This document shows, one piece after another, positions 3,487 to 26,555 of a stretch of 33,024 nt of DNA. The first letter of the stretch is position 1, and every line of letters starts with the position of its first letter. The stretch lies in assembly GCA_947459875.1 (NCBI GenBank), contig CANHFG010000019.1:1-33024 (forward strand), given 5' to 3'. The DNA comes from Ignavibacteria bacterium. Lineage in GTDB: Bacteria > Bacteroidota > Ignavibacteria > Kapaibacteriales > Kapaibacteriaceae. A model generated the notes under the pieces. The model saw nothing but the letters and a program-made list of their open reading frames with translations, did not search any database and was not told where the DNA came from. The translations under genes were made by a program, and so were the position numbers.

Positions 3487-5511
3487 ATGGATATCGAAAA
3501 GACCACAGTGATAGGGGGCGAGCTGACGCAGGAAGAGATCCGGCGTCTGGCGATCGACGCGCTGCGTCAGACCGCTAAGGACCTCGAGGCACAGCTCGAC
3601 GCGGAGGTGCGCCAGCTCTTGACTTCCTGGGAGGAGAAGAAAGCCCTTTACCGCGGCGAGTTCTACACCTACAGGGTGCGCGGCCGCGAGATCAAGGTTG
3701 AGAACTTCACCGAATCGCTCTCACACACGCGCATTCCCAAGATCGCTCTTCCACAGTTCAAAGACTGGGGTGAGATCGTCCGCTGGTGCATGCAGGAAAA
3801 CGTACCCGGTGAGTTTCCCTACACGGCAGGCGTCTATCCGTTTAAGCGCACGAATGAAGATCCTACCCGGATGTTTGCCGGCGAGGGTGGACCGGAGCGA
3901 ACGAACCGACGGTTTCACTACCTATCGAAGAACATGCCGGCGGCGCGCCTATCGACGGCCTTCGATAGTGTGACGCTCTATGGCGAGGACCCTGATCACC
4001 GGCCTGATATCTATGGCAAGATCGGCAACTCGGGCGTGAGCATCGCCTCGCTGGATGATGCCAAGAAGCTCTACTCCGGTTTTGACCTGTGTGCCCCCTC
4101 CACATCCGTTTCCATGACGATCAACGGTCCGGCACCGATGCTGCTGGCGTTCTTCATGAATGCCGCCATCGATCAGGAGTGTGAGAAGTACATCCGCGAG
4201 AACGGACTTGAGCAGCAGGTCAATGCTACGATCGATGCGCACTTCGCAGGCAGGGGGCTTACCCGTCCCACCTACCGTCACGGCGACGGATCAACCGAGC
4301 TGCCGGAGGGCAGTGATGGTCTTGGTCTGATGCTTCTGGGCATCACTGGTGATAAGGTTCTTCCGGCGGATGTGTATGAGCAGTGCCGTCAGCGTGCGCT
4401 TACCAGCGTGCGCGGAACTGTGCAGGCGGACATCCTGAAAGAAGACCAGGCGCAGAACACCTGCATCTTCTCGACGGAGTTTGCCCTTCGCATGATGGGC
4501 GACGTGCAGGAGTACTTCATTCGTGAGAGCGTTCGCAACTTCTACTCTGTTTCGATCTCGGGCTATCATATCGCCGAAGCAGGTGCCAATCCGATAACGC
4601 AGCTGGCGTTCACGCTTGCCAACGGGTTCACGTACGTAGAGTATTACCTGTCACGGGGCATGAACATTGATGATTTTGCTCCGAACCTTTCCTTCTTTTT
4701 CTCAAACGGCGTAGACCCTGAGTACAGCGTGATTGGACGGGTTGCACGACGCATCTGGGCCAAGGCCATGAAGAACGTGTACGGTGGAAACGAGCGTTCA
4801 CAGATGCTGAAGTATCACATTCAGACGTCCGGACGTTCACTGCATGCACAAGAGATCGACTTCAACGACATTCGCACGACCCTGCAGGCGCTGTATGCGA
4901 TCTATGACAATTGTAATTCGCTCCATACCAACGCGTACGACGAGGCGATAACGACGCCAACGGAGGAGAGTGTGCGTCGTGCCGTTGCCATTCAGCTCAT
5001 CATCAATCGTGAACTGGGGCTGACCAAGAATGAAAATCCGATCCAAGGCTCATTCATCATCGAGGAGTTGACGGATCTTGTCGAAGAGGCCGTGCAGGCA
5101 GAATTCCGTCGGATCTCCGATCGTGGTGGTGTGCTTGGGGCGATGGAGAACATGTACCAGCGCAACAAGATCCAGGAAGAGTCACTGTACTACGAGACCT
5201 TGAAACATACCGGACAGTATCCGATCATCGGCGTCAACACATTTCTCAGTTCAAAGGGATCGCCAACGGTGATCCCAGACGAAGTGATCCGCTCGACGAC
5301 CGACGAGAAAGAGCAGCAGATTTCCAACGTTAACTCCGTGAAACTGCGCGGCGGGGATGATGCCGGGGTAGCCCTGGACGTTCTTCGACGGACGGCTGTG
5401 CGCAACGGAAACATCTTCGAAGCGCTCATGGAAGCGGCCAAGATCTGCTCACTCGGTCAGATGACCCGTGCTCTCTATGACGTCGGCGGTCAGTACCGGC
5501 GAAACATGTAG
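3487..5511 (+). CDS. Acyl-CoA mutase catalytic subunit, isobutyryl-CoA mutase (IcmF) type / methylmalonyl-CoA mutase family
   Basis: This encodes 674 residues of the methylmalonyl-CoA mutase TIM-barrel family without its own B12 domain. Characteristic IcmF-like stretches are [11 protein letters not shown] (111-121), [18 protein letters not shown] (128-145), [13 protein letters not shown] (154-166), [13 protein letters not shown] (206-218), [16 protein letters not shown] (310-325) and [21 protein letters not shown] glutamine (Q323) sits where methylmalonyl-CoA mutases carry the arginine that binds the substrate carboxylate, favouring an uncharged acyl-CoA such as isobutyryl-CoA. Y117 is at the other specificity position, where isobutyryl enzymes are expected to have Phe. 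The first 45 residues resemble the helical linker found between G and mutase domains in fused IcmF. It must act in trans with the 691-2115 product. It follows the lipoprotein gene by four bases. Confidence 0.93.
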
Positions 5512-11391: not shown

Positions 11392-12111
11392 ATGAGCACA
11401 GGCTTGCCACACGAGAGTTACAGTACTTCCGGAACATCCGATTCGTCGGCAGGTTCTGCGCAGAATGCCGTCGACTTTGTCACCAACCGCTGGCAGACCA
11501 TTGTTGGTGTAGTGGCGGTTCTGGCCTTGGTTATCGGTGGATACTTCTACTACGACTCTCAACAGCAGGAACTCAATGTTGAAGGTCTTACGCACCTGTC
11601 ACGGGTTCGTATGACATACGACATGGGTGCGTACGAACAGGCGCTGACCGGCAAGGGCATACCACCGATGGGCAATGAGGCCGTCAAGGGGCTCGTGGCA
11701 ATCAGCGAGGAGTATGATGGCACGCCGGCGGGACAGCAGGCCGCGCTGATGGCCGGCAACGCTTATGTAAACCTCGGCAAGGCATCGGAAGCTGAAGCAC
11801 AGTTCGGCCGCGCTGCCGGGTCGTCGTCGCAACTGATCCAAGTTGGCGCCAAGCAAGGACTTGCGGCCGTTCGAGAGATGCAGAAAAACTTCTCGGAAGC
11901 AGCAGCTCTTTATGAAGAAGCTGCTACGTTGGCTGACAAAACCGGCCTTGAAGATCGACTGACGTACAATGCGGCGGTCTGTTACGAAGAATCAAAGAAC
12001 ACAGCAAAAGCCCAGGAACTGTATCGTTTGGTCGTTAAGAAATTCGAAATGTCAGAAGTTGCCGCCTCCGCAAAGTCGGGGTTGGCGCGTCTTGGCACGG
12101 CAATTGATTAG
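11392..12111 (+). CDS. Membrane-anchored tetratricopeptide-repeat protein
   Basis: This encodes 239 residues: a polar Ser/Thr-rich N-terminal tail (1-25), one transmembrane helix (about 35-54, WQTIVGVVAVLALVIGGYFY), then a helical domain with TPR-like repeats. These include AALMAGNAYVNLGKASEAEAQF, then EMQKNFSEAAALYEEAATLA and TYNAAVCYEESKNTAKAQELY. This layout matches YfgM-like or YbgF-like proteins that hold periplasmic partners, but no specific partner can be read from sequence. It is the first gene after a good promoter and precedes the giant secreted protein by 92 bases, so it may help handle the cargo encoded downstream; that link is inference. The ATG at 11392 is the natural start because the tail-helix arrangement begins directly after it. 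Confidence 0.85.
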   Translation: MSTGLPHESYSTSGTSDSSAGSAQNAVDFVTNRWQTIVGVVAVLALVIGGYFYYDSQQQELNVEGLTHLSRVRMTYDMGAYEQALTGKGIPPMGNEAVKGLVAISEEYDGTPAGQQAALMAGNAYVNLGKASEAEAQFGRAAGSSSQLIQVGAKQGLAAVREMQKNFSEAAALYEEAATLADKTGLEDRLTYNAAVCYEESKNTAKAQELYRLVVKKFEMSEVAASAKSGLARLGTAID

Positions 12112-12194
12112 CGATTCGAGGCATTTTGCCACTTTTTCAACCGAAAGAGTCCAAACACGTGAAAAAAGAGCTAAAGAATAAGGTTTTTACAACT

Positions 12195-12200
12195 GGAGGT
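12195..12200 (+). promoter_or_regulatory. Strong ribosome binding site fixing the giant-gene start
   Basis: GGAGGT lies three bases before the ATG at 12204, the best Shine-Dalgarno match in the window. It is followed at once by a textbook signal peptide. This rules out the in-frame earlier start at 12126. Confidence 0.7.
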
Positions 12201-12203
12201 TGT

Positions 12204-15200
12204 ATGCAACGTTGGTTTCGTTTGGGCAGCTTGCTGCTCGCGTTAACCGCGATTTTCAACATTGTGCCCGCATTGGCGCAGCCATTCGTTGAGGTTCGCG
12301 GTAGTCTTCCACCCGGAGGCGTACGGATTTTTGTACGCGATACGACGTACCGTATCAGTGGTTCCTACACCATTGGCGGTACTCTTATCATTGAGCCGGG
12401 CACACGAGTTGAGTTTCTTCCGAACGGTCGTCTGATTGACTCGACCGGCGGTCGCATCATTGCCGATGGACGTGCATCAGCCACGTACAACCCAACGGCA
12501 GTGAATCCATTGGTCCCACCGTATACGGGCTACGACGACCTCAGCTACTTCGGTGCTCCAGGTGTCGTAACCTCAACGATTGAGACCGAACCAACGATCA
12601 ACCCTGCCAAGCACGGTCTGATTTTCCGCGTTAACCTTGGTACGAACGCGAACCTGCAGAATATCACGCCAGCTCAGGCGATCATGTATCGGGCAGCCCG
12701 ACTTGATCTCGGAGCCGTGATTTCAGCAATTCGTCTGAACCCTTGGTTCCGCGTCTCAGGACGGACCGTAAACGTGAACCCAGCACGCATCACCTTTACA
12801 TCAGATCGCGTGAACAACTTCTCGCGTGAATGGGGTCACATCGTCGTGCTCCCTGGTGCCCGTGCCGCTTTCTTCCGTGATGTTGACTTTGTCAATTTCC
12901 GCAAGGACACGACGGTTGATAACCGTCCGGTGTATCTGACAAACAATGCTGGTCAGGCATTCACAGCAGCCCAGGCAGAAACAGCCAACCAAACGCTTCT
13001 GAGTCAGTCTAATGGTTCGGGCGGTGCGATCACGACATTCTCGTCACGCACATGGATCGTGGGCTGTAACTTCCGCAACAACATGGCTCGCTATCGCGGG
13101 GGTGCTGTTCAGATCCTGCAAGCGCCAGTTGATGCATTTACCGGTTCGACGCTTCAGCTGTACCCGACGGTTCCACCAGCTACAATTGGTGCTCTGCCGA
13201 CGTATCAGCCTTCTGTCAACCCATTCCTCACAAGTCAGTTGAACGCAACACCGATTAACACCGGTCTGCGTGTCACAGACAACGTTCATGACGCTGGTGC
13301 AGAAACACTGACCGATTCGGACCGTCAGTCACTTGACGACGCCCGTCTTGCTGTCTATCTCGGACGCATTCGTCAGTCCCGCTTCACAGGCAACTATGCT
13401 CTCGTAGCCGATGTGGACACGATCCGTGTCGGATCAGTTCGCATTGTTGGCGACGTATCAAGCCGCGCGGCAACAGTCTTCGGAACGACAACACGATCAC
13501 AGCGCAACGAAGCTTTTGGTGGCGCTGTATTCATCAGTGGTCGTACACCAATGACGATCGGTATCGGCATCAATGATTTCCAGGGTAAGGACACGATGGA
13601 GTTCACCAGCAATTACGCTGAGAACCGTCAGTCTGCTACTCCAGTTGGAAACCAGGTGACGAGTGGTGCACGTGGTGGTGCTGTATATGTAGGCGACAAC
13701 ACTCGCGTGTTCTTTGCCGGACGCTATACGACCAACCGCACGGTCACTCCTTTCATCACGACACTCTCCAGTTCGAGCGCTGCATCGGTAGGCAACTTCT
13801 CTAAGGGTGGCGCTATCTATGCAAGCACTGGAGCTCTTCAGATCCAAGTGCGTGGCAATCTCGACAATAACCCACCAACACACTTCATCGGAAACGAGTC
13901 GGGTCGTGGTGGAGCAATCTTCGTTGAGCGCGGCACTACGGATCGCGATCTTTCACCATGGATCGGTGGATCTGACGGTGTGATCGAAGCACGCAATCTT
14001 GGTTTCAACATCAAGTTCCGCGACAACAAGGCCTCGGTCGAAGGGGGCGCAATCTATACGGCACGTAACATGTATGTCTACGGTGCAGGCGGCGCGTCCG
14101 GACCACTGTGGATCTACGGTGCCAACTATGGCGTAGAATTCAACAACAACACAGCTAGCTTCTCAGGTGGCGCCATCACGGTGAACGTCCCTGAAAATCT
14201 TCCGGTTGTTGAGCGTGGTCTGCGTTACGTCCGCGCACACTTCATTAACAACCGTGTTGGCCAGGTAACGGGTACTACGGTAAATGAAGTTCGCGGTGGT
14301 GGCGGTCTCTATGTGATCAACGCTGACCTGAACGTGGTCAAGGGTGTTGAGTTTCGCGCCAACAAGGTGTGGAACGGTAACGGTGGTGCCGTTGCGATTG
14401 TCACTCCAGACACCGTTACGCGCAAGCGCTTCATGGTTACGGACATGGACGATCTAACGTTCAACACAAACGCCATGGCAACGGGATACACGCCACGCAA
14501 TGACGTGTTCACATTCGGCACATCGAGCCCAAGCGCAGATGAACGGATGCTCACCCGTTTCTATGACAACGAAGTCTATCCAAACGCTGCACGTCAGGGA
14601 TCTGGTACCACCCAGCGCGGTGATATCAAGGTGACACACCCAGGAACGACGCTTCGTGAAAACGGTACTGGTCTTGGTGGTGCTATCTACATCCTGGACA
14701 GCATCCGTGTCCGTGTCGATACTTTTGCCTTTGACCGTGTTCGTTTCCAGAACAACATGGCATTCAGTGGCGCGGCTGTCTACTCTGACAACTATGATCT
14801 CAAGCTTGCTTTCGCTCGCTGTCTCGTAACGGGCAACAAGGCTACTTCGTCGATCGGTCGTCAGAACGACACTATCGAAGGCCCAATGGTCAACGCCGAA
14901 AATCCTGCATCAAGCGATCTCGCTGGCGCGGTTCTGTTTGGTGAGATCACGGGTCCACTTCCATGGAACACGTACAGCTCTGCAGCCAACAGCATCTATG
15001 ATAACGACGCCCGCTTCATCGTGCGTCTTCCAGATGCTCAGGACACGAAGGGCGTACTCGCAGGCACCACAGGTATCGGTTTCGGTGGTGTAGACACGCT
15101 CCGCGGTAACTACTGGGGTCGCACGGAAGCAAACGTTAACACGATCCTTCCGCTGTCGGCAGGTTCTACGTTTGCACGCGAGCAAGAGACGTTCTTCATC

Positions 15201-18200
15201 GCCGGTAACGGTAAGACGCACATGCGCTTTGTCCGCGGCACAACGTCGAACCCAACAAATCAGGGTCCATTCGAATCAGCATGGCGTTATGCTTACACGC
15301 CAATCCCTTCATGGCAGATCCCAGATACGCTCCTTATGCAAGGTCGTGTCTATGACATCTTCGACAAGGGAACTGACATTAAGACGGCCGACTATTCTAG
15401 CCGCCGTATGTCACCAATTGAAGATTTCGCTATCGGCATTCCGCCAACGCTCCGTCTTTATGCTGATCCGCTTCAGCCATCATTCAACAAGTATGTCAAG
15501 CGCATGACCCGTAATCCGTACGATGCAGATCGTTTCACGGATGTGGCTGCAGTGCAGACGGAATTTGTTGGTGATCATCCGATCGGCTATCCTCTGTTCC
15601 TCGAAGCTCGTGCCGACTATAATGGCACTGCCGAGATCGCGAACAACGATGCACGTGCTATCAACGAGACTGTGTTCTTCGTGATCAACGAACGCACGGG
15701 TGACTTCATCCGCGTGAACATGTCGCAGCGCACAAACACGGACACAATCTTCCGCGCTCGTGTTGACTTCGTTCCAGATTCATCGAACGGCGGTGATCCG
15801 AATATCCGTCGCGCGTACGAAGGTCTTGCGACGTATGGTACCGGAGCCACACTGCTGAGCAACATCGTCCGCAGCGCTATTGCGGAAGACTCAGCTGCTC
15901 TTGCAGGCCGTCGTTACGAGGCTTCGTCGACACTCGGAGAACTCGGCGGTTCGGACTTCCGTCTGACAAACCGTCCAACACTTCCGACATCGAATACAAT
16001 TGGTTCTGATGGTGGCAAGGAAACCTACTACGCTGGCGAGCGCTATCGTGCCCTGCCAGTCGTCAACGGTGACCCAATCACGATCATTTCACGTACCGCA
16101 CTTTGGAAAGACGGCGTTGTCAACGCAATCAACGGCGCTTTGACCTTTAACATTGGCAATAACACGGCTCCTCCGGTTTTCACGGGTTGTGCCGACACGC
16201 TGCCAACATCGCCACTGCTGCACCCAGAGTTTCGTAATCGCGTGTTTGTTACGGAGAACCGTCTCTATACGCCAATTACGGCTGCTCAGTCATCACGTGG
16301 TCCTGGTCGCGGAAGTTGGTTCAATGAGCCAGCTAGCTATCCAGCCGACATCCTCAATCAGCCGATCCCAGGTCGCGATGTCTTTGAGCGTGACTCAATC
16401 TTCTCGATTACAGCAGTTGACGTGAATCGCTTCTACGACCCACGTGTCGTTCGCGATCCAAACTTCAACGCGCAGTTGTCGTACTTCTGGTCGATTCGCA
16501 CTGGTAATTCAGGTCTGCAGTACTGGCTTCGTGACACGCTTGTGTTTGCCGGTTCGACAACGAACAACCCACGTTGGAGCGCTGTTGGATATCGCTTCTT
16601 CCGCGGACGTCCGATCAACCCATACATCGTTCCAGGCGGCGAGTTGGTCGAAGTTGTTGCAAAGAACTTCCCACCAAGCGTTGAGATTGTTGACACGCTT
16701 CGCAAGTCGGGATGGAGCGAATCAGACATTAGCCGCTGGTTCTACACGTATCCATCGTACTTCCACGCCGAAGAGTATGACAACAATGCTCTTCCACTGG
16801 CCCAACGCGATCCAAGCAACACAAATGCACGTTACCTGCAGCAGGATACTGTGAATTACGGCTGGCTCGACTCTGTGTCGTATCAGTTCCGCATTCACGT
16901 TGTCGACTCGATGCCGCGATTCCTGTGGAATCACCGTTCAACTGGTGCAAGCGCCTTTGCTAACGCCGGTATGTGGAAGGGCGACACAACGATCGTTCTC
17001 GATCCGACGACCACAGATCCTGATGCTTACGACAGGGCTACGCGTACGTACCTTGACACACTCCGCATGTTCAATACGACGAGTCGTGTAGCACGTCGTT
17101 TCGTTCCAGCTCCGCAGGCGACACCAAACAACATCCTTGATGAGGTGTACAACAACCCAACGTCAAGCCAGAACGACACGCTGAACATCCACTTTGTGGC
17201 CAACGTAACGGACTCGCTGCGTTTCCGCGCCGACATCAATACGGATGATGAGTTCGAGGACCTCGCGGCAATCGATCAGAATCGTGCGGTTGTCAAGCGT
17301 CTTGGCGCATGGGACTTCCGTTATGGACGCACATCGTATGGATTCCTCTCCACATCGATCCGTGAGACTCCAGCTGACACTTCGCTTGAAACAATCATTC
17401 AGGCACGCCCAAGCTGGATGGCTTCACGCTTCCTACGCAAGTATGAAGCCGCAGGTTCGTCTGACCAGTTTGCTCAGGACTTCACGACTCGCGGTCGCCT
17501 TGAAGTTCGGATCGCTCGCGATCTTGCTAACGAGCTGCTTCAGCCTATCAACGACTATGATCCGGGCCGTCCATTCAACGACGACCGCAACACGGACACG
17601 GTCATGACAGTGGTTGTAAATGATGGTCACGGTGGTATCAACACCCTGACACGTCGTCTCTTCGTGAACTTCCAGCCAAGCCTGCTTGATGCTACGCTTG
17701 CTGATGCCATTGAAGACGAAGACTACAACACACAACTCATCGATAGCGCCCGTCGCATCAAGGTCTATGATCCTAACTTTGGTCAAACACAGGCATTCGA
17801 ATTGATCTATGCTAGCGAGTCTCGCGACAGCATTCAGATCGACCCTTACTTTGCCGAAGCCGGTTTCATCAAGTTTGATGACTCACGCAAGACGACACCG
17901 AACTGGCTCAAGATCAATCCAACATCGGGCATCCTGTACGGAACGCCGCGTGTTACGGATGTCCCTTATCCAGATACGACCGTCCGCATTACGGTTCTCG
18001 TCACGGACGCCGGTGGTCTTCGTGACATCAAGACCTACGATCTGACAATCCGTGCGAAGAATCACAATCCTACGCTTCTTCAGTCACCAATCATTCGCTG
18101 CGTTGAGGCTGGCAAGCCATACACAGACACGATCCGCGTCACCGACGTTGATCTGCGTCGCAAGCAGGCTGCGAATGAAGAACTGACATTCGAAGTGACG

Positions 18201-19244
18201 GAGCCAGCTGGTACGTGGAAATTCACTCCAGAGAAGCTTTCGAGCCCAGTCGCCGACACGCAGCGTGTAGCGATCTCTACAGACAACCTTCAGGGCAACA
18301 TCGTCGACGGTCGTATTCGCATCGTTGTGATCGTAACAGATCGTCAAGGAGCAAAGGATACACTGACGTACTCAGTTGCTGTGTCGGATGAAACACGCTT
18401 CTCAGCTACGGTTCGCGTCGAAAACAACCTCGGAGCATTCCAGAACCTTACGTTCGGTGTCGGGGGCTCAACTATCGCCACTCGCGGTGACGAGGCAACA
18501 TCGTTCGGTAAGCTTGATTCGAACTACTGCGAGTATGAACTGCCGCCAGTTCCTTACATCGACGTATTCGACGCTCGCTGGACTGTTCCAACGCGTAACG
18601 GCACGGTCCGCAACATCCATCCATTCTCTAACTCAGCAGGACAGTCGATCTATCAAGGTCGCTTCCAGGCTGGTGGTGAAACAGGGCAGAGCTCGAACTA
18701 CTATCCAGTTCGTCTGACATGGTGTAAGGATCAGATTCCTGCAAAGGATGCAAACAACCCAGGCTCATACTACATCCGTGATGACCAGTCAAATGGTCAG
18801 CTGTTCGACTTCAACATGAAGACGGGCACCGGTAAGTCCATCCCAAGCGTACAGAAGCGCGATGGTGTGAACTCTGAGTGCGACACACTTCTCATTAACA
18901 TCACGTCGATTGAAGGATTCGTCATTGTGTACGACTTCACATCGCCGGTGAATGAAGAAGAGACAGCATCAACGTTTGCTATCACAGGTGTTGCTCCAAA
19001 CCCATTTGCAGGCACGACAACGATCACGTTCAACGTGGCAGCAGCTGCCAAGGTTGGCGTTGACATCTATGATGCAGTTGGGACACGCGTGGCGACGGTT
19101 GCCAATGAAGTGTACTCGGCAGGTAAGCACTCTGTGCAGTGGGACGGAACAACAAATGGTGTTGCTCTTGCTTCAGGTACATATACAGTGCGCATCAGTG
19201 ACGGAACAAATACTGCGACTCAGCAAGTCGTAGTGATCCGCTAA
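12204..19244 (+). CDS. Giant T9SS-exported surface protein with Pmp-like beta-helix repeats and Ig-like domains
   Basis: This encodes 2346 residues. A signal peptide (1-25, cleavage after PALA) is followed by a beta-rich opening (TLIIEPGTRVEF). Roughly residues 285-910 form a right-handed beta-helix with paired FxxN and GGA[I/V/L] motifs: FRNN...GGAVQI, FTSN...GGAVYV, FIGNESGRGGAIFV, FRDN...GGAIYT, FNNN...GGAITV, FRAN...GGAVAI and FQNN...GAAVYS. These are the hallmarks of chlamydial polymorphic outer membrane proteins. Near 1899-1918, NWLKINPTSGILYGTP marks a putative-Ig (He_PIG) domain, followed by a cadherin-like repeat. At about 2082-2127 lies an FGV...YELPPVPYIDVFDARW module shared with neighbouring proteins. 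The C-terminus (from about 2252; VAPNPFAGTTTITFNV to VVVIR) is a T9SS type A sorting domain. It is probably an adhesin or matrix protein on the outer surface; ligand unknown. Confidence 0.9.
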   Translation: MQRWFRLGSLLLALTAIFNIVPALAQPFVEVRGSLPPGGVRIFVRDTTYRISGSYTIGGTLIIEPGTRVEFLPNGRLIDSTGGRIIADGRASATYNPTAVNPLVPPYTGYDDLSYFGAPGVVTSTIETEPTINPAKHGLIFRVNLGTNANLQNITPAQAIMYRAARLDLGAVISAIRLNPWFRVSGRTVNVNPARITFTSDRVNNFSREWGHIVVLPGARAAFFRDVDFVNFRKDTTVDNRPVYLTNNAGQAFTAAQAETANQTLLSQSNGSGGAITTFSSRTWIVGCNFRNNMARYRGGAVQILQAPVDAFTGSTLQLYPTVPPATIGALPTYQPSVNPFLTSQLNATPINTGLRVTDNVHDAGAETLTDSDRQSLDDARLAVYLGRIRQSRFTGNYALVADVDTIRVGSVRIVGDVSSRAATVFGTTTRSQRNEAFGGAVFISGRTPMTIGIGINDFQGKDTMEFTSNYAENRQSATPVGNQVTSGARGGAVYVGDNTRVFFAGRYTTNRTVTPFITTLSSSSAASVGNFSKGGAIYASTGALQIQVRGNLDNNPPTHFIGNESGRGGAIFVERGTTDRDLSPWIGGSDGVIEARNLGFNIKFRDNKASVEGGAIYTARNMYVYGAGGASGPLWIYGANYGVEFNNNTASFSGGAITVNVPENLPVVERGLRYVRAHFINNRVGQVTGTTVNEVRGGGGLYVINADLNVVKGVEFRANKVWNGNGGAVAIVTPDTVTRKRFMVTDMDDLTFNTNAMATGYTPRNDVFTFGTSSPSADERMLTRFYDNEVYPNAARQGSGTTQRGDIKVTHPGTTLRENGTGLGGAIYILDSIRVRVDTFAFDRVRFQNNMAFSGAAVYSDNYDLKLAFARCLVTGNKATSSIGRQNDTIEGPMVNAENPASSDLAGAVLFGEITGPLPWNTYSSAANSIYDNDARFIVRLPDAQDTKGVLAGTTGIGFGGVDTLRGNYWGRTEANVNTILPLSAGSTFAREQETFFIAGNGKTHMRFVRGTTSNPTNQGPFESAWRYAYTPIPSWQIPDTLLMQGRVYDIFDKGTDIKTADYSSRRMSPIEDFAIGIPPTLRLYADPLQPSFNKYVKRMTRNPYDADRFTDVAAVQTEFVGDHPIGYPLFLEARADYNGTAEIANNDARAINETVFFVINERTGDFIRVNMSQRTNTDTIFRARVDFVPDSSNGGDPNIRRAYEGLATYGTGATLLSNIVRSAIAEDSAALAGRRYEASSTLGELGGSDFRLTNRPTLPTSNTIGSDGGKETYYAGERYRALPVVNGDPITIISRTALWKDGVVNAINGALTFNIGNNTAPPVFTGCADTLPTSPLLHPEFRNRVFVTENRLYTPITAAQSSRGPGRGSWFNEPASYPADILNQPIPGRDVFERDSIFSITAVDVNRFYDPRVVRDPNFNAQLSYFWSIRTGNSGLQYWLRDTLVFAGSTTNNPRWSAVGYRFFRGRPINPYIVPGGELVEVVAKNFPPSVEIVDTLRKSGWSESDISRWFYTYPSYFHAEEYDNNALPLAQRDPSNTNARYLQQDTVNYGWLDSVSYQFRIHVVDSMPRFLWNHRSTGASAFANAGMWKGDTTIVLDPTTTDPDAYDRATRTYLDTLRMFNTTSRVARRFVPAPQATPNNILDEVYNNPTSSQNDTLNIHFVANVTDSLRFRADINTDDEFEDLAAIDQNRAVVKRLGAWDFRYGRTSYGFLSTSIRETPADTSLETIIQARPSWMASRFLRKYEAAGSSDQFAQDFTTRGRLEVRIARDLANELLQPINDYDPGRPFNDDRNTDTVMTVVVNDGHGGINTLTRRLFVNFQPSLLDATLADAIEDEDYNTQLIDSARRIKVYDPNFGQTQAFELIYASESRDSIQIDPYFAEAGFIKFDDSRKTTPNWLKINPTSGILYGTPRVTDVPYPDTTVRITVLVTDAGGLRDIKTYDLTIRAKNHNPTLLQSPIIRCVEAGKPYTDTIRVTDVDLRRKQAANEELTFEVTEPAGTWKFTPEKLSSPVADTQRVAISTDNLQGNIVDGRIRIVVIVTDRQGAKDTLTYSVAVSDETRFSATVRVENNLGAFQNLTFGVGGSTIATRGDEATSFGKLDSNYCEYELPPVPYIDVFDARWTVPTRNGTVRNIHPFSNSAGQSIYQGRFQAGGETGQSSNYYPVRLTWCKDQIPAKDANNPGSYYIRDDQSNGQLFDFNMKTGTGKSIPSVQKRDGVNSECDTLLINITSIEGFVIVYDFTSPVNEEETASTFAITGVAPNPFAGTTTITFNVAAAAKVGVDIYDAVGTRVATVANEVYSAGKHSVQWDGTTNGVALASGTYTVRISDGTNTATQQVVVIR

Positions 19245-19254
19245 AGCAATCCAT

Positions 19255-19278
19255 GGGGCCGGACTTCGGTTCGGCCCC
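19255..19278 (+). terminator. UUCG-tetraloop hairpin after the giant gene
   Basis: GGGGCCGGAC-TTCG-GTTCGGCCCC forms a 10-base-pair stem (one G-T pair) with a C(UUCG)G tetraloop, 10 bases after the giant-gene stop. Only a short, interrupted T-stretch follows, so it may terminate weakly or mainly protect the 3' end of the upstream mRNA. Confidence 0.65.
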
Positions 19279-19325: not shown

Positions 19326-21380
19326 ATGAAGAAGCAGGTATTAATTGCCTCGGCGATTGTACTCTGTTCATTCGCGATCGGTGCGGTTGAGGGCGTGGCT
19401 CAGCAGATCTTTAATCAGTTCCGCCAGCCCCAGCTCGTTGTTGGATTCCCTTATCGGGATCTCGACAACTGCCCCGGAGTGAGTGCAACGACAATCTCCC
19501 CAGCAGACTTTACGCTTCCGCCAACAAACGTCAACGACCTGGACGATGGCTACGCCTTCATCCAGTTCCCGGCAGGCGTGACCTACAACTACAACGGCAC
19601 TCTGTATTCAGGTGTGTACGTTAGTATCAATGGTTTCTTGACCTTCGAACGTACAAAGCTTGTTTCTGCAAAGAATCCAATTGGACTCTTTATCAACTCA
19701 AGCTCTTACCCGGATAATGTTCTCGCTCCATTCTGGGGTGACCACCGTTTCCGCACTGCAGCAGACATCGCCGGTGGCTTCATGCCATCGAAGATCTCGT
19801 GGGCGTTTGATTTTGACCGCGACGAAAGCTGTCAGATCATCCAGCCAGCTCGTCCTTGCATCGTCGTGCAATGGAAGAATCTGAACATCAATACGTCGCC
19901 TGTTGCCGTCAACTCATCGGTGGCAAACTTCCAGGCTCGTATCTACATTGGCGGTGCTACAAACAACAACCAGGGCGAAGTTGAATTCGCTTATGGTCAA
20001 GTTGGTGGCAACCCGAATACAACAAATACAACGGTCGTCACGCGCGGTGCTACTATCGGCATCAAGGGTAACGGCGGTTTTCCAGGGTTCCTCGCGGACT
20101 TCTGGAATGGTCTCGTGTGGCAGCCAGGTGTCGGTGGAAACACGCGCACCGATTCAACATCGGTTTGGCAGCCATCTGGTGGTCGCTCTGATGCTCGGAT
20201 CCGTTTTGGTTCAATCGTGTATTTGACGTTTAGCGATTGGGGTTACGGCGACGCTGACACATCTGGTGCTATCAACCAGCGTCACTTTGATCTTCCACAA
20301 AATCGTCGCGTGACGGCTAACGATGCTCGCGTTATCATGCGCTCAATCGTGACCAAGCGTCCGCTCGATTCGATCTGGAAGCGTCAAGCCTATCTGGCCG
20401 ACGTCAATCACTCCGGTCGTTACTACTTCACGAAGCTCAAGAGAGATTTTTCGGGTGACTCGCTTCAGCCGGGCACGAGCAACATTGTGATTTGGCGCCG
20501 TACTATCGACATTGAGCAGTTCTTCCCTGGACAGGGCGTAGGTCCAAACACCAACAAGCAAGTTGTGCGTGTCATGTTCGAAGGTGACGGGCTATACGGT
20601 CCAGGTGGCAAGGCACCAGATGTGAGCAGTCTCAATCAGATTTACTACGAAGCAACGGAATATGACGCAGGGCTGATCATGCGTTATCTCTCGGGTCGTC
20701 TGCCATATCTGCCTTGGATCTATGACATCGACACGACCGGTCCTGACTTTGGAAAGGTCACGTTGGACAACGTTGCGGACAATGTTCGTTTCGGTACACC
20801 GACAAATGTTGGCGGTGGTCTTGTGCAGGTTCCGGTATATCTGAACGGTAACCACGACGGTGCCTTCGGTGTACGGTTTGGCACCAACTCTGATATCGTT
20901 TCGGTGACGCCGGTTGTTGGCGAGTCTAACGTCGTCTCCAGCGACAATGGAACCGATGTGGCTGTTATTGCTGGCAACGGTTCATTCGATGGAAATCAAC
21001 CGGTAGCTCTCGTGACGATGAAGGAATCAGATGTGTTGACATTCAACGACATCCGCTTTAATGAAGCGTCTGTTCCGAATCACACGATTAGCATGGTCGA
21101 GAATGACGGCGCTAATGTCTCGGCTTATCCAAATCCAGTCACTGCAACAATGGCACTTGCTGTGAACGCACAAGCGAGTGGAAACCTAACTGTTCGTGTC
21201 TATGACATGTTTGGAAAGATCGTAAATACGATCCATGACGGCACGGTTTCTGCAGGCGCTTTCAGCACAACATGGAATACCACTGACATGGGCGGAGTAG
21301 CCGTGGCAGCCGGTTCATACATCGTGCGTATCGAAGGTGCTGGCGTGTCAGCTGTGAAGGTTGTCAACGTCGTTCGTTGA
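19326..21380 (+). CDS. T9SS-exported protein with nidogen-like, dockerin-like and cohesin-like regions
   Basis: This encodes 684 residues with a signal peptide ending near VEGVA (about 25). Residues 60-260 resemble a nidogen-like extracellular domain: GVYVSINGFLTF, APFWGDHRF and a GEVEFAYG strand. From about 308, GDADTSGAINQ...VTANDARVIMRSI and then ADVNHSGRYYF...YDAGLIMRYLSGRLP (to about 462) look like two dockerin calcium-binding repeats separated by long insertions. At 499-583, LVQVPVYLNGNHDGAFGVRF...VALVTMKE resembles a cohesin fold. The C-terminus (from about 598, VSAYPNPVTATMAL to VVNVVR) is a T9SS type A sorting domain. Cohesin and dockerin modules suggest protein-protein assembly outside the cell; no catalytic domain is visible. 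TTGGAG eight bases upstream supports the ATG. Domain calls are by pattern only. Confidence 0.85.
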   Translation: MKKQVLIASAIVLCSFAIGAVEGVAQQIFNQFRQPQLVVGFPYRDLDNCPGVSATTISPADFTLPPTNVNDLDDGYAFIQFPAGVTYNYNGTLYSGVYVSINGFLTFERTKLVSAKNPIGLFINSSSYPDNVLAPFWGDHRFRTAADIAGGFMPSKISWAFDFDRDESCQIIQPARPCIVVQWKNLNINTSPVAVNSSVANFQARIYIGGATNNNQGEVEFAYGQVGGNPNTTNTTVVTRGATIGIKGNGGFPGFLADFWNGLVWQPGVGGNTRTDSTSVWQPSGGRSDARIRFGSIVYLTFSDWGYGDADTSGAINQRHFDLPQNRRVTANDARVIMRSIVTKRPLDSIWKRQAYLADVNHSGRYYFTKLKRDFSGDSLQPGTSNIVIWRRTIDIEQFFPGQGVGPNTNKQVVRVMFEGDGLYGPGGKAPDVSSLNQIYYEATEYDAGLIMRYLSGRLPYLPWIYDIDTTGPDFGKVTLDNVADNVRFGTPTNVGGGLVQVPVYLNGNHDGAFGVRFGTNSDIVSVTPVVGESNVVSSDNGTDVAVIAGNGSFDGNQPVALVTMKESDVLTFNDIRFNEASVPNHTISMVENDGANVSAYPNPVTATMALAVNAQASGNLTVRVYDMFGKIVNTIHDGTVSAGAFSTTWNTTDMGGVAVAAGSYIVRIEGAGVSAVKVVNVVR

Positions 21381-21405
21381 TAAAAACCGAAGCGTTCTCT
21401 TGAAA

Positions 21406-22554
21406 ATGATTGTGCAAGTGATCGTGCTGATCGTCGGACTGACGATCAGCACGGTCAAGGCACAAGACACACTTCGAATCAACTCCCTAAAGGTAGTAGA
21501 TGTGTGTTCAGGTGAGAAGAGTTGGCTGATAAGCCTTTCGCTAGGCACGATCAACTTCTCCGACAGCTTGGAGTCCTTTGACATTTCAATCGGTTATGAT
21601 CGATCGATCATTCGCCCCTCAGCTGCCCTGAAAGAGGGAACTCTCTCTGCGCAGATGTCCAACGGTCCAATACTAAATGTTGTTGTTCCGAATGAGATGA
21701 GAATCTATGGATTCAACATTGCGAGGTCAGTCGCCGGCAGCCTTCCACTGTTCGCAGTATCTGGCGACTATCTTGGGGAATGCAACTCGATTGGGCAACT
21801 AACACTGCCGATAGAGCCAGACTTCAATGGTGAATTCAAGAGAAAGTTCACAGTTCGGCGCCTAGACTCTGTTACGGCGATCAACGTTCGCAAAAACAGT
21901 GTGTTCAGTGGTTGCGAGTTTGATAAGGAAGAGGCAATGATATCGGAGCTTGATGCCTCTACTTCGGTAGCTATGAAACTCAAGAATCTCAGCAGGGAAT
22001 CGACTGCCAAATACAGACTAACTCTCAGTTTTGAAAGACAATCGGACTCAACACTTATGGCATTTGACTCCATCTATGCTATCGGGTGCACGATCGAAGA
22101 CATAGAGATAGGGTCAACAAGAGTAGGAGTCACAATTTCTTCTTTAACACGCGACGCACCCGAAATCGTGTCTGTGGTAAAGCGACGGAGCTTGGAGTCG
22201 TCTGGAAGAGTGAATGTGAGTGCAAGTGTTATCGACAGAACACCATGTGGTTGTGTCCAACCCGCGCTGAACGATACTGTTGTAATAACGATCGATCGAC
22301 CGAATGTAAATGTCTCAACATCTACGGATGAGGACGCATGTACGATCTCACTTCGTTCTAACGAAGTGCACGGCATGTGTGGTCATTCGGGGATGAAAAA
22401 GCTGATACTGCGTGACCTTCTTGGTCAAACAGTTCAGCAGATCGAAACAGACAACTATCCGGTTGTCATGTCGACATCCAACTTGACTTCTGGCATGTAC
22501 TTTGTTGCGCTTTCGTGTAATGAAGATCATGCATTCAAACTGATTCTGAAATGA
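21406..22554 (+). CDS. Cysteine-rich secreted protein with degenerate T9SS sorting domain
   Basis: This encodes 382 residues, with a signal peptide MIVQVIVLIVGLTISTVKA and predicted cleavage after A19. A TTG two codons earlier (21400) would give a lysine at the N-terminus and is an alternative start. Residues about 40-80 (WLISLSLGTINFSDSLESFD, then GYDRSII) resemble the opening of a cohesin-like sandwich. Around ten cysteines are scattered through the mature part (VCSGE, GECN, GCEF, GCTIE, PCGCV, GMCGH, SCNED), suggesting disulfides. The last 50 residues (KKLILRDLLGQTVQQIE...LTSGMYFVALS...KLILK) fit a T9SS type A sorting domain. Base composition is visibly more AT-rich than the flanking genes, with AGA and ATA codons. 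The stop overlaps an unused ATG of the next frame. No specific function is recognised. Confidence 0.8.
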   Translation: MIVQVIVLIVGLTISTVKAQDTLRINSLKVVDVCSGEKSWLISLSLGTINFSDSLESFDISIGYDRSIIRPSAALKEGTLSAQMSNGPILNVVVPNEMRIYGFNIARSVAGSLPLFAVSGDYLGECNSIGQLTLPIEPDFNGEFKRKFTVRRLDSVTAINVRKNSVFSGCEFDKEEAMISELDASTSVAMKLKNLSRESTAKYRLTLSFERQSDSTLMAFDSIYAIGCTIEDIEIGSTRVGVTISSLTRDAPEIVSVVKRRSLESSGRVNVSASVIDRTPCGCVQPALNDTVVITIDRPNVNVSTSTDEDACTISLRSNEVHGMCGHSGMKKLILRDLLGQTVQQIETDNYPVVMSTSNLTSGMYFVALSCNEDHAFKLILK

Positions 22555-22577
22555 AAAATCAACTGATCAACTCATCT

Positions 22578-22583
22578 GAGGAG
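22578..22583 (+). promoter_or_regulatory. Ribosome binding site deciding the start of the 1037-residue protein
   Basis: GAGGAG lies six bases before the ATG at 22590. An in-frame ATG at 22551 overlapping the previous stop has no such site and would add 13 polar residues before the signal peptide. Confidence 0.6.
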
Positions 22584-22589
22584 TGTACT

Positions 22590-25500
22590 ATGAATCGTCG
22601 TTATGCTCTGTGGAGCGGCGGTACCAAGTTTGGTGTCGTTGCCCTCCTTGCGGCATTGATCGGACTTGGATCCGTCATGCTCCAGGCACAGAACAAGCCT
22701 GAGCTGCCGACGCTCTCGTTGACGGGAGACGGGGCAAGCTGGAACCGCAATATTTATCCTGATGGTCGCATCTGGTCGTCAAGCCGCGGACCAAATGGAG
22801 AGCGCACACTTCTGGTACCTGTGTTCGTGAAGAACTGCTGGAGGTCGACTGCGATCTATGAAGCATTCCCTATCTATAGCTTCAAGTTCAAGGTCCAGTT
22901 CGACAGCGCAGCTCTCGAATTCATCGGAATCGAAAAGAACGGACCCCTTCGCGGGCCACAGATGACTCCGGTCTCTTGCCTGGCAAAGGATTTTGAGTTT
23001 TCCGTAGCGGTATCGCGGGATACATCGTACCAGCGCGTGATCGCTGCTCCGATTCAGAACCGTCTTCGTGGTAAGCGCGCGATGATCACAGCTATTTCGT
23101 CAAAGCCACTCCCACAGACAGGCGATGTGACACTGCCTTGTGATCAGCGTCCTTACACAGAGTTGGTTTATCTCCGCTTCCGCGTGATTGCTAACACAGC
23201 GATCGATCCTGTGAGCGCTCGTACGCCACTTATCATCACGAACGACACTCTGTACTACAACGACTTTGCCATGGGCAAGCAGATCCCATTCCCTGGTGAT
23301 CCTGCGCCTGATGAATATGCGGGTCTCGGTGGTATCGACAACTACTTCGTTGACGCTTTCGGTGTGGACCAGATCCGCGATCCACTTCGTCCATCACGTC
23401 GCGGTATGATCTGGCTCGAAGTGACTGACGTTGCTCCACGCCTGTCTTTTACAAATGTCGCCAATCCTGCTTTCCGTCTGGCTGACTCTGTGAACGGCTC
23501 GCTCGGTTCACAGTGGTATGTTGTTGATCCGATCACAGTCGACTACGGAACACCATATGACGATCAAGCTGGTGGTATCGGTACTCGTGATGTTGACGTT
23601 ATCAATGCCGTTACTGGTTCACGCGCCTATGACATCATGGTTCAGTCAGACAACAAGTGGCTGAAGTTCAAGTCGTTTACCAAGGGTGGTGGCGGACAAA
23701 CTGAGTTGAATCCGTTCCCGAACCCGGTACGCGAAGGATACATCCAGTATATGGACAAGGGTATCCTTGGTAGCACGGTGGGTGTCGACCCACAGGGTAA
23801 TGCCACTGTCGGTCAGCGTGACCTCAACCTGCGTATCATCTGCGATCCAAATGAACTGCCGAATGGCGATGAACAAGAGGTAACAGGTACATACGTTGGA
23901 TATCTCACGTTCAAGTCGAATTCTCTTGATGTCGCACCTGTGCGTCTCAAGGTGACCTTCATCTACTTCCGCACTCCGTACGAGCCGAACGTTTTCGACG
24001 AAAATGAAAACTGGAAGCGTAGCCAGGAGTTTCTCGGCCGCGGTATCACACTCCAGGTTCGTAACTCGAACACGCCTAACGAGATCACGTATGTGACCTT
24101 CGGTGTCGGCAACCGCGCTACAGACAACATTGACACACTGTTTGGCGAAACGACATACGCGACAGACATCAACCCGACGCAGTTTGCAGCTCGCTTCTAT
24201 CCTAAGGATAACACAGGTAAGCTTCTTGTGCCGAACGGTCTTGGTGATCTGTGGGCTGGTACTGCTCAGCGCGCAAAGAGCGCTTCACGTGATATTCGTT
24301 CGATCTACAGCGACACGACACTCGCCTACACCTGTCGCTTCAGCGCAGGTGGAGATCTGAACTACCCAATCGTTGTCGCTTGGAACACAGATGAGTTTTC
24401 ACCAGGTTCAGAGCTGTTCATCCGTGACACGCTGAATGGATCACGTTTCAACGTCAACATGCGCGCCGGCACAGTACTTGGTGGAACACGCCAGTCATAC
24501 ACGATCCGTGACGCTGACATCAAGTCATTTGTCATCGAATACACGCTGCCGAAGGTTGCACGTTTCCCAGTCATCAATAAGGGCTGGAACCTCCTTTCGG
24601 TTCCTGTTAACCCATCGTCTAGCTACTGGAAGGACATCTTCAAGAACGCACTGAATATTCCAGTACGTTTCTCGCAGAACACCTACCAGACAAACGAAAC
24701 GAACCTGAACCCAGGCGTTGGCTACTTCGTTAAGTACAGTGACGAAGTCGACAAGACGATCGCAGGTTCACGTATTCGCCTGATCGATGACCTGACCTAC
24801 ACAACACGCTTGTTCGAAGGTTGGAACACCGTAGGCTCGCTCTCCTTCCCAACATCGATTGAGAACCTGTCGATCCTTCCGTACGGAACTGGCACGCTTC
24901 CTACGCGTCTCGGCGATGTCTATGGTTACGTAACAAACCGCGGTTATCAGGCCGTCACGGAGATCGAACCAGGTCTGGGTTACTGGATCAAGATCACGGG
25001 TCAGGGCTATCTGAAGCTCGGTCTGGCTCCAAAGGCATCTATCAACACGATGGTTGCTCGCGAAGCAGTCGAGACGAACTCAACACGAGTTTCGATCGCG
25101 GATGCATCGAATAACGTTGGAACCGTGTTTGTTGCACCTGCTGGTATCATTGACAGCAAGTCGATGTTCGAACTGCCTCCAACGCCACCACAAGGAATCT
25201 TTGACGTCCGCTTCACTTCGCAGACAAGCATTGAAGACGAGAAGAATCCAACGGTTGCGATCCAAGGCGTAACATTCCCAGTTACTGTGACGATCAACAA
25301 CCCACGTACAACGTACACGGTTGTTAACCCGATCTCGGGCGCCGTGCTCGGAACCGCAGTCGCAGGTCGTCCAAACGTGATCACGATCACCGATGCACGT
25401 ACACCGTACATCCGCCTTATGGGCGAAGAAGCACAAGCCGGCTCACTGAACGTCAACGTGACACCAAATCCTGTCAATGGCACGGGTCTTGTCAACGTGG

Positions 25501-25703
25501 TTGTTCCAGAAGCAGGTACGGTTTCTGTGACGGTATTCGATGCAGTCGGCCAAGCTGTTATGACACTTGCTAACAACGAGTTCAAGACAGCTGGCGTCTA
25601 TGGCTATGAGTTCAACTCAGCCGTGATCAGCCAAGGCAACTACATTGTCAAGGCAACTGTCAACGGTGTTTCGACAACGAGCTCGGTTTCCGTTGTCCGC
25701 TAA
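22590..25703 (+). CDS. Large T9SS-exported multidomain surface protein
   Basis: This encodes 1037 residues with a signal peptide of about 34 residues ending near MLQA. Residues about 96-215 begin YSFKFKVQFDSAALEFIGIE, reminiscent of cohesin or related carbohydrate-scaffold sandwiches. Around 502-540, VTFGVGNRATDNIDTLFGE and FAARF form one copy of a module shared with the giant protein; a second copy (about 841-877) contains VFVAPAGI...FELPPTPPQGIFDVRF. Between them are two GWN repeats (KGWNLLSVPVNP near 664, EGWNTVGSLSFP near 743), a motif often seen in Bacteroidetes secreted proteins. The C-terminus (from about 953, LNVNVTPNPVNGTGLVNVVV to SVSVVR) is a T9SS type A sorting domain. No enzyme motif is seen; a structural or adhesive role is likely. 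A strong terminator follows 17 bases after the stop. Confidence 0.87.
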   Translation: MNRRYALWSGGTKFGVVALLAALIGLGSVMLQAQNKPELPTLSLTGDGASWNRNIYPDGRIWSSSRGPNGERTLLVPVFVKNCWRSTAIYEAFPIYSFKFKVQFDSAALEFIGIEKNGPLRGPQMTPVSCLAKDFEFSVAVSRDTSYQRVIAAPIQNRLRGKRAMITAISSKPLPQTGDVTLPCDQRPYTELVYLRFRVIANTAIDPVSARTPLIITNDTLYYNDFAMGKQIPFPGDPAPDEYAGLGGIDNYFVDAFGVDQIRDPLRPSRRGMIWLEVTDVAPRLSFTNVANPAFRLADSVNGSLGSQWYVVDPITVDYGTPYDDQAGGIGTRDVDVINAVTGSRAYDIMVQSDNKWLKFKSFTKGGGGQTELNPFPNPVREGYIQYMDKGILGSTVGVDPQGNATVGQRDLNLRIICDPNELPNGDEQEVTGTYVGYLTFKSNSLDVAPVRLKVTFIYFRTPYEPNVFDENENWKRSQEFLGRGITLQVRNSNTPNEITYVTFGVGNRATDNIDTLFGETTYATDINPTQFAARFYPKDNTGKLLVPNGLGDLWAGTAQRAKSASRDIRSIYSDTTLAYTCRFSAGGDLNYPIVVAWNTDEFSPGSELFIRDTLNGSRFNVNMRAGTVLGGTRQSYTIRDADIKSFVIEYTLPKVARFPVINKGWNLLSVPVNPSSSYWKDIFKNALNIPVRFSQNTYQTNETNLNPGVGYFVKYSDEVDKTIAGSRIRLIDDLTYTTRLFEGWNTVGSLSFPTSIENLSILPYGTGTLPTRLGDVYGYVTNRGYQAVTEIEPGLGYWIKITGQGYLKLGLAPKASINTMVAREAVETNSTRVSIADASNNVGTVFVAPAGIIDSKSMFELPPTPPQGIFDVRFTSQTSIEDEKNPTVAIQGVTFPVTVTINNPRTTYTVVNPISGAVLGTAVAGRPNVITITDARTPYIRLMGEEAQAGSLNVNVTPNPVNGTGLVNVVVPEAGTVSVTVFDAVGQAVMTLANNEFKTAGVYGYEFNSAVISQGNYIVKATVNGVSTTSSVSVVR

Positions 25704-25720
25704 TTCATGAGAAATGGAGC

Positions 25721-25753
25721 AAAAAGGGCAGCAGGTAACTGCTGCCCTTTTTT
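25721..25753 (+). terminator. Strong intrinsic terminator
   Basis: AAAAAGGGCAGCAG (25721-25734), a GTAA loop and CTGCTGCCC followed by TTTTTT make a perfect stem with both an A-tract and a T-tract. It should terminate efficiently on the plus strand and could act in both directions. It ends the run of large secreted-protein genes. Confidence 0.9.
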
Positions 25754-25775
25754 GTTCGTTGTAGAAGGTCCGTCA

Positions 25776-26555
25776 ATGAAAATCATTTCCGCGCTTATCG
25801 CCATCTTTTTGATGGTATACACACTGTCTGCTCAGACTGTGCAGATCCCTCTGTCCTTTGCAAACGTGCTTCCTACGGGATTGTCGACGTTCAACTTTTC
25901 TGTTGGGGCACATCCGGCAGCAACGGACGGCGTTGACACGGTCCTTAAGGAACAGGAGATCCCATCGTTACCTCCTCCGGCCGGAGTGTTCATCGTCTAC
26001 TCCATACCACCGACACCTGACTTCATCTGGCTGAGCCCTCGTGACATCCGCGCCCTGAAGATTGGTGAAAAGCAACTGATCACTTATGAGATCGGAGTGA
26101 CGTGGAACGGCGGACGCCTGGAGATCGGGTGGGGCCAGATGCCGAAGTTTGTTGATAGCGCATACATCACCGACGTTATCACCGACTTTCCCGACAACTT
26201 CATTAAACAGAAGCTGCTCCCGGGAGTTGTGTACTCTACGACCAATTCGGCTATTACCAAGCTCAAGGTACTTGTCTGGTATAATGCAACGGAGTTCTCC
26301 TCTGTTGATATGGCATCGTCGACATCCCAATTGAACGTCTACCCCAACCCAAGCGATGGATTCGTCCGCGTTAAGGGGGCTGATCAGGGCTCGACGGTTA
26401 GCGTGCGCGACATGACGGGTAAGGTGTGCAGCGAAGCCGTGCTTGACTCGTCGGAGCATACCATAGACCTTTCTGCGTTCGGTCCGGGCATCTATTCGAT
26501 GTCAGTTTCCGATCAGAGGGGTCACTATCGGACGTGTATGATCGTCCGCCGTTGA
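25776..26555 (+). CDS. Small T9SS-exported protein
   Basis: This encodes 259 residues. The signal peptide MKIISALIAIFLMVYTLSA is followed by mature QTVQIPLSF. Residues about 36-75 (FNFSVGAHPAATDGVDTVLK, then PSLPPPAGVFIVYSIPP) are the clearest copy of the FGV...ATDG.D...LPPPP.G.F module that recurs in its neighbours. From about 186, LNVYPNPSDGFVRVKGADQ to GIYSMSVSDQRG is a compact T9SS type A sorting domain. An in-frame ATG at 25707 exists, but it would place the terminator hairpin inside the gene and bury the signal peptide; AGAAGG eight bases before 25776 supports the later start. The gene therefore probably has its own promoter or receives read-through. Function is unknown; the fold between module and sorting domain is beta-rich. 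Confidence 0.85.
   Translation: MKIISALIAIFLMVYTLSAQTVQIPLSFANVLPTGLSTFNFSVGAHPAATDGVDTVLKEQEIPSLPPPAGVFIVYSIPPTPDFIWLSPRDIRALKIGEKQLITYEIGVTWNGGRLEIGWGQMPKFVDSAYITDVITDFPDNFIKQKLLPGVVYSTTNSAITKLKVLVWYNATEFSSVDMASSTSQLNVYPNPSDGFVRVKGADQGSTVSVRDMTGKVCSEAVLDSSEHTIDLSAFGPGIYSMSVSDQRGHYRTCMIVRR

Follow-up and report, generated by a model that had tools for sequence, protein, structure and literature searches.

Within a stretch of 33,024 nucleotides from an Ignavibacteria bacterium of the Candidatus Kapabacteria (contig CANHFG010000019.1, contig C19 of a 2.4 Mb genome; the whole stretch is referred to as the window), three adjacent genes form an apparent operon, as judged from their close spacing and from a terminator after the third gene. 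Sequence comparisons confirmed that the first product, a protein of 684 amino acids, holds a divergent type I dockerin with two predicted loop-helix calcium sites, both loops of which are split by insertions. Cohesin-like domains were detected in all three products, which look like cargo of the type IX secretion system (T9SS). On balance we consider it probable that the operon makes a calcium-dependent, non-enzymatic surface complex of T9SS proteins joined by dockerin and cohesin. Export signals, domains, operon and conservation of the three-gene cluster were established by computation. The features of the operon are as follows:

19326-21380 (+): gene of the 684-residue dockerin/cohesin/T9SS protein
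19431-20225 (+): N-terminal all-beta domain of the 684-residue protein, residues 36-300 (model confidence, as predicted local distance difference test (pLDDT), ~80-95)
20250-20324 (+): predicted dockerin calcium loop 1, D309 (position 1) to D333 (position 12)
20400-20666 (+): predicted dockerin calcium loop 2, D359 (position 1) to D447 (position 12)
20769-21107 (+): cohesin-like domain of the 684-residue protein, residues 482-594 (VIA-align, Foldseek, hhalign)
21114-21380 (+): T9SS C-terminal sorting domain of the 684-residue protein (TIGR04183, PorU C-terminal domain (CTD))
21406-22554 (+): gene of the ~382-residue middle protein, with cohesin-like N-terminus and T9SS tail (in-frame ATG at 21406)
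21460-21888 (+): cohesin-like domain of the middle protein, including FDISIGYDRSII (hhalign profile)
22551-25703 (+): gene of the 1050-residue cohesin/T9SS protein (conserved start more likely M14, at 22590)
22701-23432 (+): predicted cohesin domain of the 1050-residue protein, residues 51-294, including FKFKVQFDSAALEF (VIA-align of the model)
25440-25703 (+): T9SS sorting domain of the 1050-residue protein (TIGR04183, PorU CTD)
25721-25752 (+): intrinsic terminator closing the three-gene unit (14-bp stem and T run, -29.8 kcal/mol, z -8.0)

To characterize the dockerin, 63 homologues were aligned, and two stretches of the 684-residue protein, GDADTS...VTANDARVIMRS and DVNHSGR...TEYDAGLIMRYL, were found to resemble calcium loops. 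Asp occupies positions 1 and 12 of both loops in 63/63 sequences. Position 3 is Asp or Asn in 62/63 (loop 1) and 63/63 (loop 2), and position 5 is invariably filled by Ser or Thr in loop 1 and by Asn, Ser, Asp or Thr in loop 2 (63/63 each). The ligand residues that type I dockerins carry at positions 1, 3, 5 and 12 of both repeats are thus present, and the loops would be expected to bind calcium; the two uninterrupted 12-residue calcium loops that are the other rule for this type are lacking in the family. Loop 1 has an insertion of 11-16 residues across homologues (13 in the 684-residue protein, at about residues 315-327) and loop 2 one of 33-88 residues (77, at about residues 366-442). Positions 1 and 12, canonically 11 residues apart, are separated by 22-27 residues in loop 1, with 49 sequences at a distance of 24, and by 44-99 in loop 2; the two loops lie 26 residues apart in 58/63, counted from position 12 of the first to position 1 of the second. 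Some members of family f19 have a loop 2 insertion of only ~12-15 residues, and one f19 homologue (L161, 8328-10604) has an unusually long one that is rich in Thr and Ser.

The native 684-residue protein gave no PF00404 match in Pfam, and none of its homologues exceeded the cut-off, one reaching 12.5 bits. Across the whole genome no PF00404 match was obtained and no other dockerin was recognised. Pfam misses this dockerin because both calcium loops are interrupted, and because of the same insertions searches of the native proteins against Pfam, NCBIfam and PDB sequences returned sorting tails as the sole matches. When the insertions were removed in silico from 10 homologues and the products scanned with Pfam (PF00404 cut-off 22.9 bits), 10/10 matched PF00404 with 17.9-46.8 bits (best E 3.4e-12); 7/10 exceeded the curated cut-off and 9/10 spanned nearly the whole model. 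In a control in which the cut points were moved by 4-9 residues, the same proteins scored ≤13.7 bits. The splice test was devised once the alignment was known, which is offset only in part by a decoy test. For the latter, 30 canonical dockerins that belong to other proteins of the class were made into a profile, and a script picked the best legal splice of each sequence. All family sequences (32/32) reached ≥26.5 bits (median 40.4), and the 600 decoy windows (781 variants vs 787) reached ≤11.5 bits, with just 53/600 of these windows permitting any splice variant. Searched against the PDB, a profile of the spliced sequences ranked solved dockerins first (4fl4, 7e-8; 1daq, 3e-7; 2mte, 3e-7).

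In the AlphaFold2 model of the 684-residue protein (mean pLDDT 82.9), helices are predicted at residues 331-342, 354-358 and 445-455, which is the dockerin order (pLDDT mostly 83-95, in a model of the whole protein). The helix at 331-342 follows loop 1, those at 354-358 and 445-455 flank loop 2, and both position-12 Asp residues are the third residue of a helix. No dockerin chain was among the Foldseek and VIA matches listed for the whole model, and since other domains fill that list the result is uninformative; the same holds for a phmmer search of the PDB with one unrelated canonical dockerin stretch, which gave no match. The three open reading frames to which a sequence-only reading of this DNA referred were found in place, together with the sequence strings quoted from them; the reading had described dockerin-like repeats made atypical by long insertions, which the splice and decoy tests, the conserved ligands and the insertion lengths bear out. 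The Pfam search that it suggested gave a divided answer: the native proteins matched neither PF00404 nor PF00963, and the spliced homologues matched PF00404 throughout. A plain Pfam check would therefore have told wrongly against the dockerin. Its appeal to predicted structures was answered by a cohesin fold in the models of the 684- and 1050-residue proteins and, for the dockerin, by helices in the expected order within the whole-protein model.

Among the cohesin candidates, the fold is clearest in the 1050-residue protein (model pLDDT 83.9). Residues 51-294 were aligned by VIA-align with cohesin 6kgc (Z 10.7, root-mean-square deviation 2.7, 134/144 residues) and also with 2xdh (Z 10.6), 1g1k (10.3) and 4dh2 (10.3), cohesins being the leading family with ~19 of the 50 matches listed. 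A cohesin in this protein is thus supported by its model. A cohesin-like domain in the 684-residue protein is supported by predicted structure and profile together: residues 482-594 match 2jh2 (Z 9.1, 107/130 residues) and 3kcp (Z 8.4), Foldseek lists the cohesin-FN3 construct 2w1n second for the whole model (E 1.2e-6), and hhalign relates the domain to Pfam-confirmed cohesins of the class with 95.4%. Other immunoglobulin-like folds, for example Als adhesins, score similarly to cohesins on these residues. For the ~382-residue protein a cohesin-like domain is supported by profile only, its N-terminal profile matching cohesins of related bacteria with 92.7% (E 4e-7; all hhalign E-values are those of single comparisons). 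The 1050-residue protein's cohesin reached 63% against class cohesins and 55% against the middle protein's domain. Compared directly by profile, the cohesin-like domains of the 684- and ~382-residue proteins showed no link (hhalign 0.1%); the two connect solely through class cohesins. None of the native cohesin-like domains reached the PF00963 score (11.3 bits for the 1050-residue protein in a genome search), and profile searches of the PDB with each of the three alignments gave nothing significant, cohesin 4dh2 appearing at E 0.16 for the 1050-residue one.

Two of the three proteins exceed the cut-off of 23 bits of TIGR04183, the T9SS type A sorting domain (684-residue protein, 33.9 bits; 1050-residue protein, 26.6 bits), and the middle protein falls just below it (19.1 bits). 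In the models the PorU sorting domain is matched with Z 11.7 (684-residue protein) and Z 10.4 (1050-residue protein), and signal peptides were judged by eye. All three look like T9SS cargo, the 684- and 1050-residue proteins by profile and model and the ~382-residue protein by a profile score just under the cut-off. Pfam and NCBIfam detected neither a glycosidase nor any other enzyme domain in them, T9SS sorting tails being the only matches above cut-off. Homologues of the N-terminal domain of the 684-residue protein showed weak PF06119 matches (E 7e-4, 0.02 and 0.12), so that residues 36-300 are possibly nidogen (NIDO)-like; the domain (19431-20225) is among the most conserved parts of the protein and may be a functional head. 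Much of what the sequence-only reading had said of the three neighbours was recovered by these searches: cohesin-like segments in all three (by profile only in the middle one), sorting tails on adjacent proteins, and no glycosidase motif. Its suggestion that the system may be something other than a cellulosome also held. A cellulosome was rejected, as the cluster proteins are without enzyme domains, the genome is without another recognised dockerin and no tandem cohesins were seen. An assembly built from the three adjacent proteins, which it had put forward as possible, is a plausible hypothesis.

The cluster is core, single-copy and order-wide across Candidatus Kapabacteria. The gene of the 684-residue protein was present in 98/119 relatives and that of the 1050-residue protein in 105/119, with few exceptions at a single locus per genome. 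Among named loci, the gene of a 2372-residue protein precedes that of the 684-residue protein in 67/67, the middle gene follows the latter in 57/57, the 1050-residue protein's gene lies downstream in 69/69, and a gene of a 282-residue protein comes after it in 43/43. Where the contig extends far enough, a tetratricopeptide repeat (TPR) gene is present 5' of the 2372-residue protein's gene in most neighbourhoods. Of the loci in relatives, 23/70 have a terminator-like site after the third gene and 0/75 have one after the first. Beyond the order, full-length relatives with the same gene order occur in families f13 (5 genomes) and f19 (11), where a similar-sized TPR gene is also present. Some absences are contig breaks, as in G001, whose contig starts at the 1050-residue protein's gene. 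Family f7 comprises 10 genomes without either gene (G028, G036, G043, G049, G054, G059, G063, G067, G070 and G073), and since the members sampled still encode sorting-domain proteins, the T9SS does not require the cluster. This family of the order is a natural knock-out group for the two genes. One assembled genome carries two cluster copies (L135 and L112, both BPHJ01000001.1); the second has a shortened gene for the 684-residue protein and scores like the cluster of genome G024, and it represents a recent transfer or a mis-assembly.

Canonical dockerins were detected in 58/197 related genomes of the class (E ≤ 1e-6). In many of the canonical-dockerin proteins read out, the dockerin is directly followed by another domain and then by a T9SS tail. 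When this next domain was tested in 8 proteins, 6 scored above the Pfam cohesin cut-off, 1 below, and 1 gave no match. The cohesin profile from the window found several of them, among these L187 (1e-5), L173 (9e-5) and L175 (1e-4). At loci L173, L182, L187, L189, L164 and L176 (around 1501), Pfam dockerin, Pfam cohesin and T9SS tail end unrelated large proteins. Sequence comparison thus points to dockerin, cohesin and T9SS tail as a recurrent C-terminal module in the class, which seems widespread and little described. The 684-residue protein looks like an insertion-bearing descendant: the canonical tandem was probably the ancestral form, and the loop insertions would have been gained.

Taken together, these data suggest how the complex could work. 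The three products would be exported via the T9SS and attached to the cell surface through their C-terminal sorting domains, where the 684-residue protein would display its dockerin. The dockerin would then bind one cohesin in a calcium-dependent manner. The most favoured partner is the N-terminal cohesin of the 1050-residue protein, whose cohesin fold is the clearest and which is co-inherited with the dockerin. Binding would join the products of the single-copy cluster into an enzyme-free surface complex, which may include the beta-helix protein of 2372 residues and may serve as a surface scaffold or adhesin. The loop insertions are compatible with cohesin binding, since the loop-insert dockerins of CttA and ScaA bind cohesins (PMC5934362). 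Several points weigh against this proposal: the loop 2 insertion of up to 88 residues could mask the usual cohesin-binding face, and the native sequences fall short of the Pfam models. Cohesin-like stretches were moreover found in two more sorting-tail proteins of the same genome on other contigs, so the presence of a cohesin fold is not in itself proof of partnership with a dockerin. The stretches, at L192 (949-3117, -) on contig C18 and L193 (1-2154, +) on contig C4, score 22.1 and 13.1 bits, under the PF00963 cut-off, and are followed by apparent sorting tails; these proteins may offer the single dockerin further cohesin partners. We hold tentatively, as a possibility that may well prove wrong, the further-reaching idea of a core, vertically inherited, lineage-defining, non-cellulosomal T9SS cohesin-dockerin machine in which the split-loop dockerin joins single-copy surface proteins and the insertions provide a second ligand-binding or specificity surface.

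As the canonical tandems suggest an ancestral in-line module, an intramolecular or self-polymerising role is a serious rival, even if we regard it as unlikely. The dockerin would then pack on the adjacent cohesin-like domain of its own chain or of a second copy, giving a calcium-stiffened stalk before the T9SS tail or a homopolymer, and the cohesins of the neighbouring proteins would have other purposes. Dockerin and cohesin do appear to travel as one module, since the same order, with a canonical dockerin, ends many unrelated large proteins of relatives, and the ScaH dockerin of Ruminococcus flavefaciens is known to recognise itself (PMC5301203). However, the inter-domain linker is poorly predicted (pLDDT ~44 at 470-480), pLDDT gives no hint that the two domains meet at a fixed interface, and the co-inherited cohesin of the 1050-residue protein would be left unexplained. 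An explanation that we consider improbable is that the dockerin is a relic, a structural spacer that continues to fold around calcium and has lost cohesin binding through the insertions. It would account for the interruption of both loops, for the spread of 44-99 residues between D1 and D12 of loop 2 and for the loss of any canonical dockerin signal without splicing. It fits poorly with ligand positions and many following helix residues that are near invariant over many families, and natural loop-insert dockerins still bind cohesin (PMC5934362). That the likeness is accidental, arising from short motifs rich in Asp within an unrelated domain, agrees with the negative unspliced Pfam searches; it is strongly disfavoured and very improbable in view of the splice and decoy tests, the dockerin matches in the PDB and the context shared with canonical dockerin-cohesin-CTD proteins.

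The operon is flanked in the window by further members of the conserved cluster and by a hairpin:

11392-12111 (+): 239-residue TPR protein with a membrane anchor, whose gene opens the conserved cluster (PF09976/PF14559 matches)
12126-19244 (+): 2372-residue beta-helix (PMP-repeat) T9SS protein, directly 5' of the operon (PF02415, PF05345, T9SS tail; probable start ~12204)
19255-19278 (+): hairpin in the gap between the 2372-residue protein's gene and the operon (10-bp stem, -21.1 kcal/mol, z -3.2, without T run)
25707-26555 (+): 282-residue T9SS protein, final gene of the conserved cluster (probable start ~25776, 3' of the terminator)

Elsewhere in the window, the halves of a fused isobutyryl-CoA mutase (IcmF) appear to be encoded by two separate genes, between which sits a 456-residue open reading frame without NCBIfam matches (691-2115, 2112-3482, 3487-5511). 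One gene for 714 residues (8984-11128) combines the alpha with the beta part of an E1 component of the pyruvate dehydrogenase type.

Dockerins are normally found through their compact calcium loops, and family models miss the split-loop type of the 684-residue protein. As such loops escape these models and yet keep their ligands across many families, dockerins are probably under-counted outside cellulosomes. For an uncultured lineage the analysis describes a small surface operon that is near-universal and enzyme-free and yields a clear, testable prediction of binding, and it links the chemistry of cohesin and dockerin with the T9SS.

Compared with the type I dockerin (PF00404), the dockerin of the 684-residue protein shares the two predicted loop-helix calcium repeats, the ligand positions and the predicted helix order, and matches once spliced; it differs in that both loops are interrupted, the repeats are asymmetric and it sits outside any enzyme. 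Its closest precedent is found in the XDoc of CttA and the loop-insert dockerin of ScaA of R. flavefaciens, in which 13 and 12 residues, respectively, are inserted in the second calcium loop and which were both crystallised with cohesins (PMC5934362); the CttA inserts brace the X module (PMC5301203, PMC4266597). These dockerins likewise depart from the uninterrupted-loop rule, but in the second loop alone and with partly altered ligands, whereas the 684-residue protein has both loops interrupted and the ligands kept. A literature search, outside which most subscription papers lay, found no published doubly loop-interrupted dockerin and no description of this cluster. Single-loop inserts are already known, and what appears to be new is that a dockerin with both loops split forms part of a core surface operon that is single-copy and non-cellulosomal.

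With cohesins (PF00963; 6kgc, 1g1k, 2xdh) the 1050- and 684-residue proteins share the predicted domain fold and the profile link to class cohesins, whereas the native sequences stay below the Pfam model and the 1050-residue protein's domain is enlarged to ~240 residues; 2xdh, among the matches to the latter, is a non-cellulosomal cohesin of Archaeoglobus. The canonical tails of the class (L173, L182, L187, L189) have the same domain order and detectable homology to the 684-residue protein, and differ in uninterrupted calcium loops and in their fusion to different large proteins. A study of rumen Bacteroidetes reports neither cohesins nor dockerins, in line with other Bacteroidetes genomes (PMC5831590), and the cellulases of Melioribacter are without either (PMC3534657). 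For the Cloacimonadota (Candidatus Stygibacter; PMC8542988), a cellulosome-like system has been proposed whose surface attachment is of the T9SS type, and it resembles the system described here in combining cohesins and dockerins with a C-terminal surface-attachment domain. Unlike that system, in which several hydrolases bear dockerins and a scaffoldin carries cohesins in tandem, the cluster of the Kapabacteria is a single-copy core with one dockerin and no enzymes.

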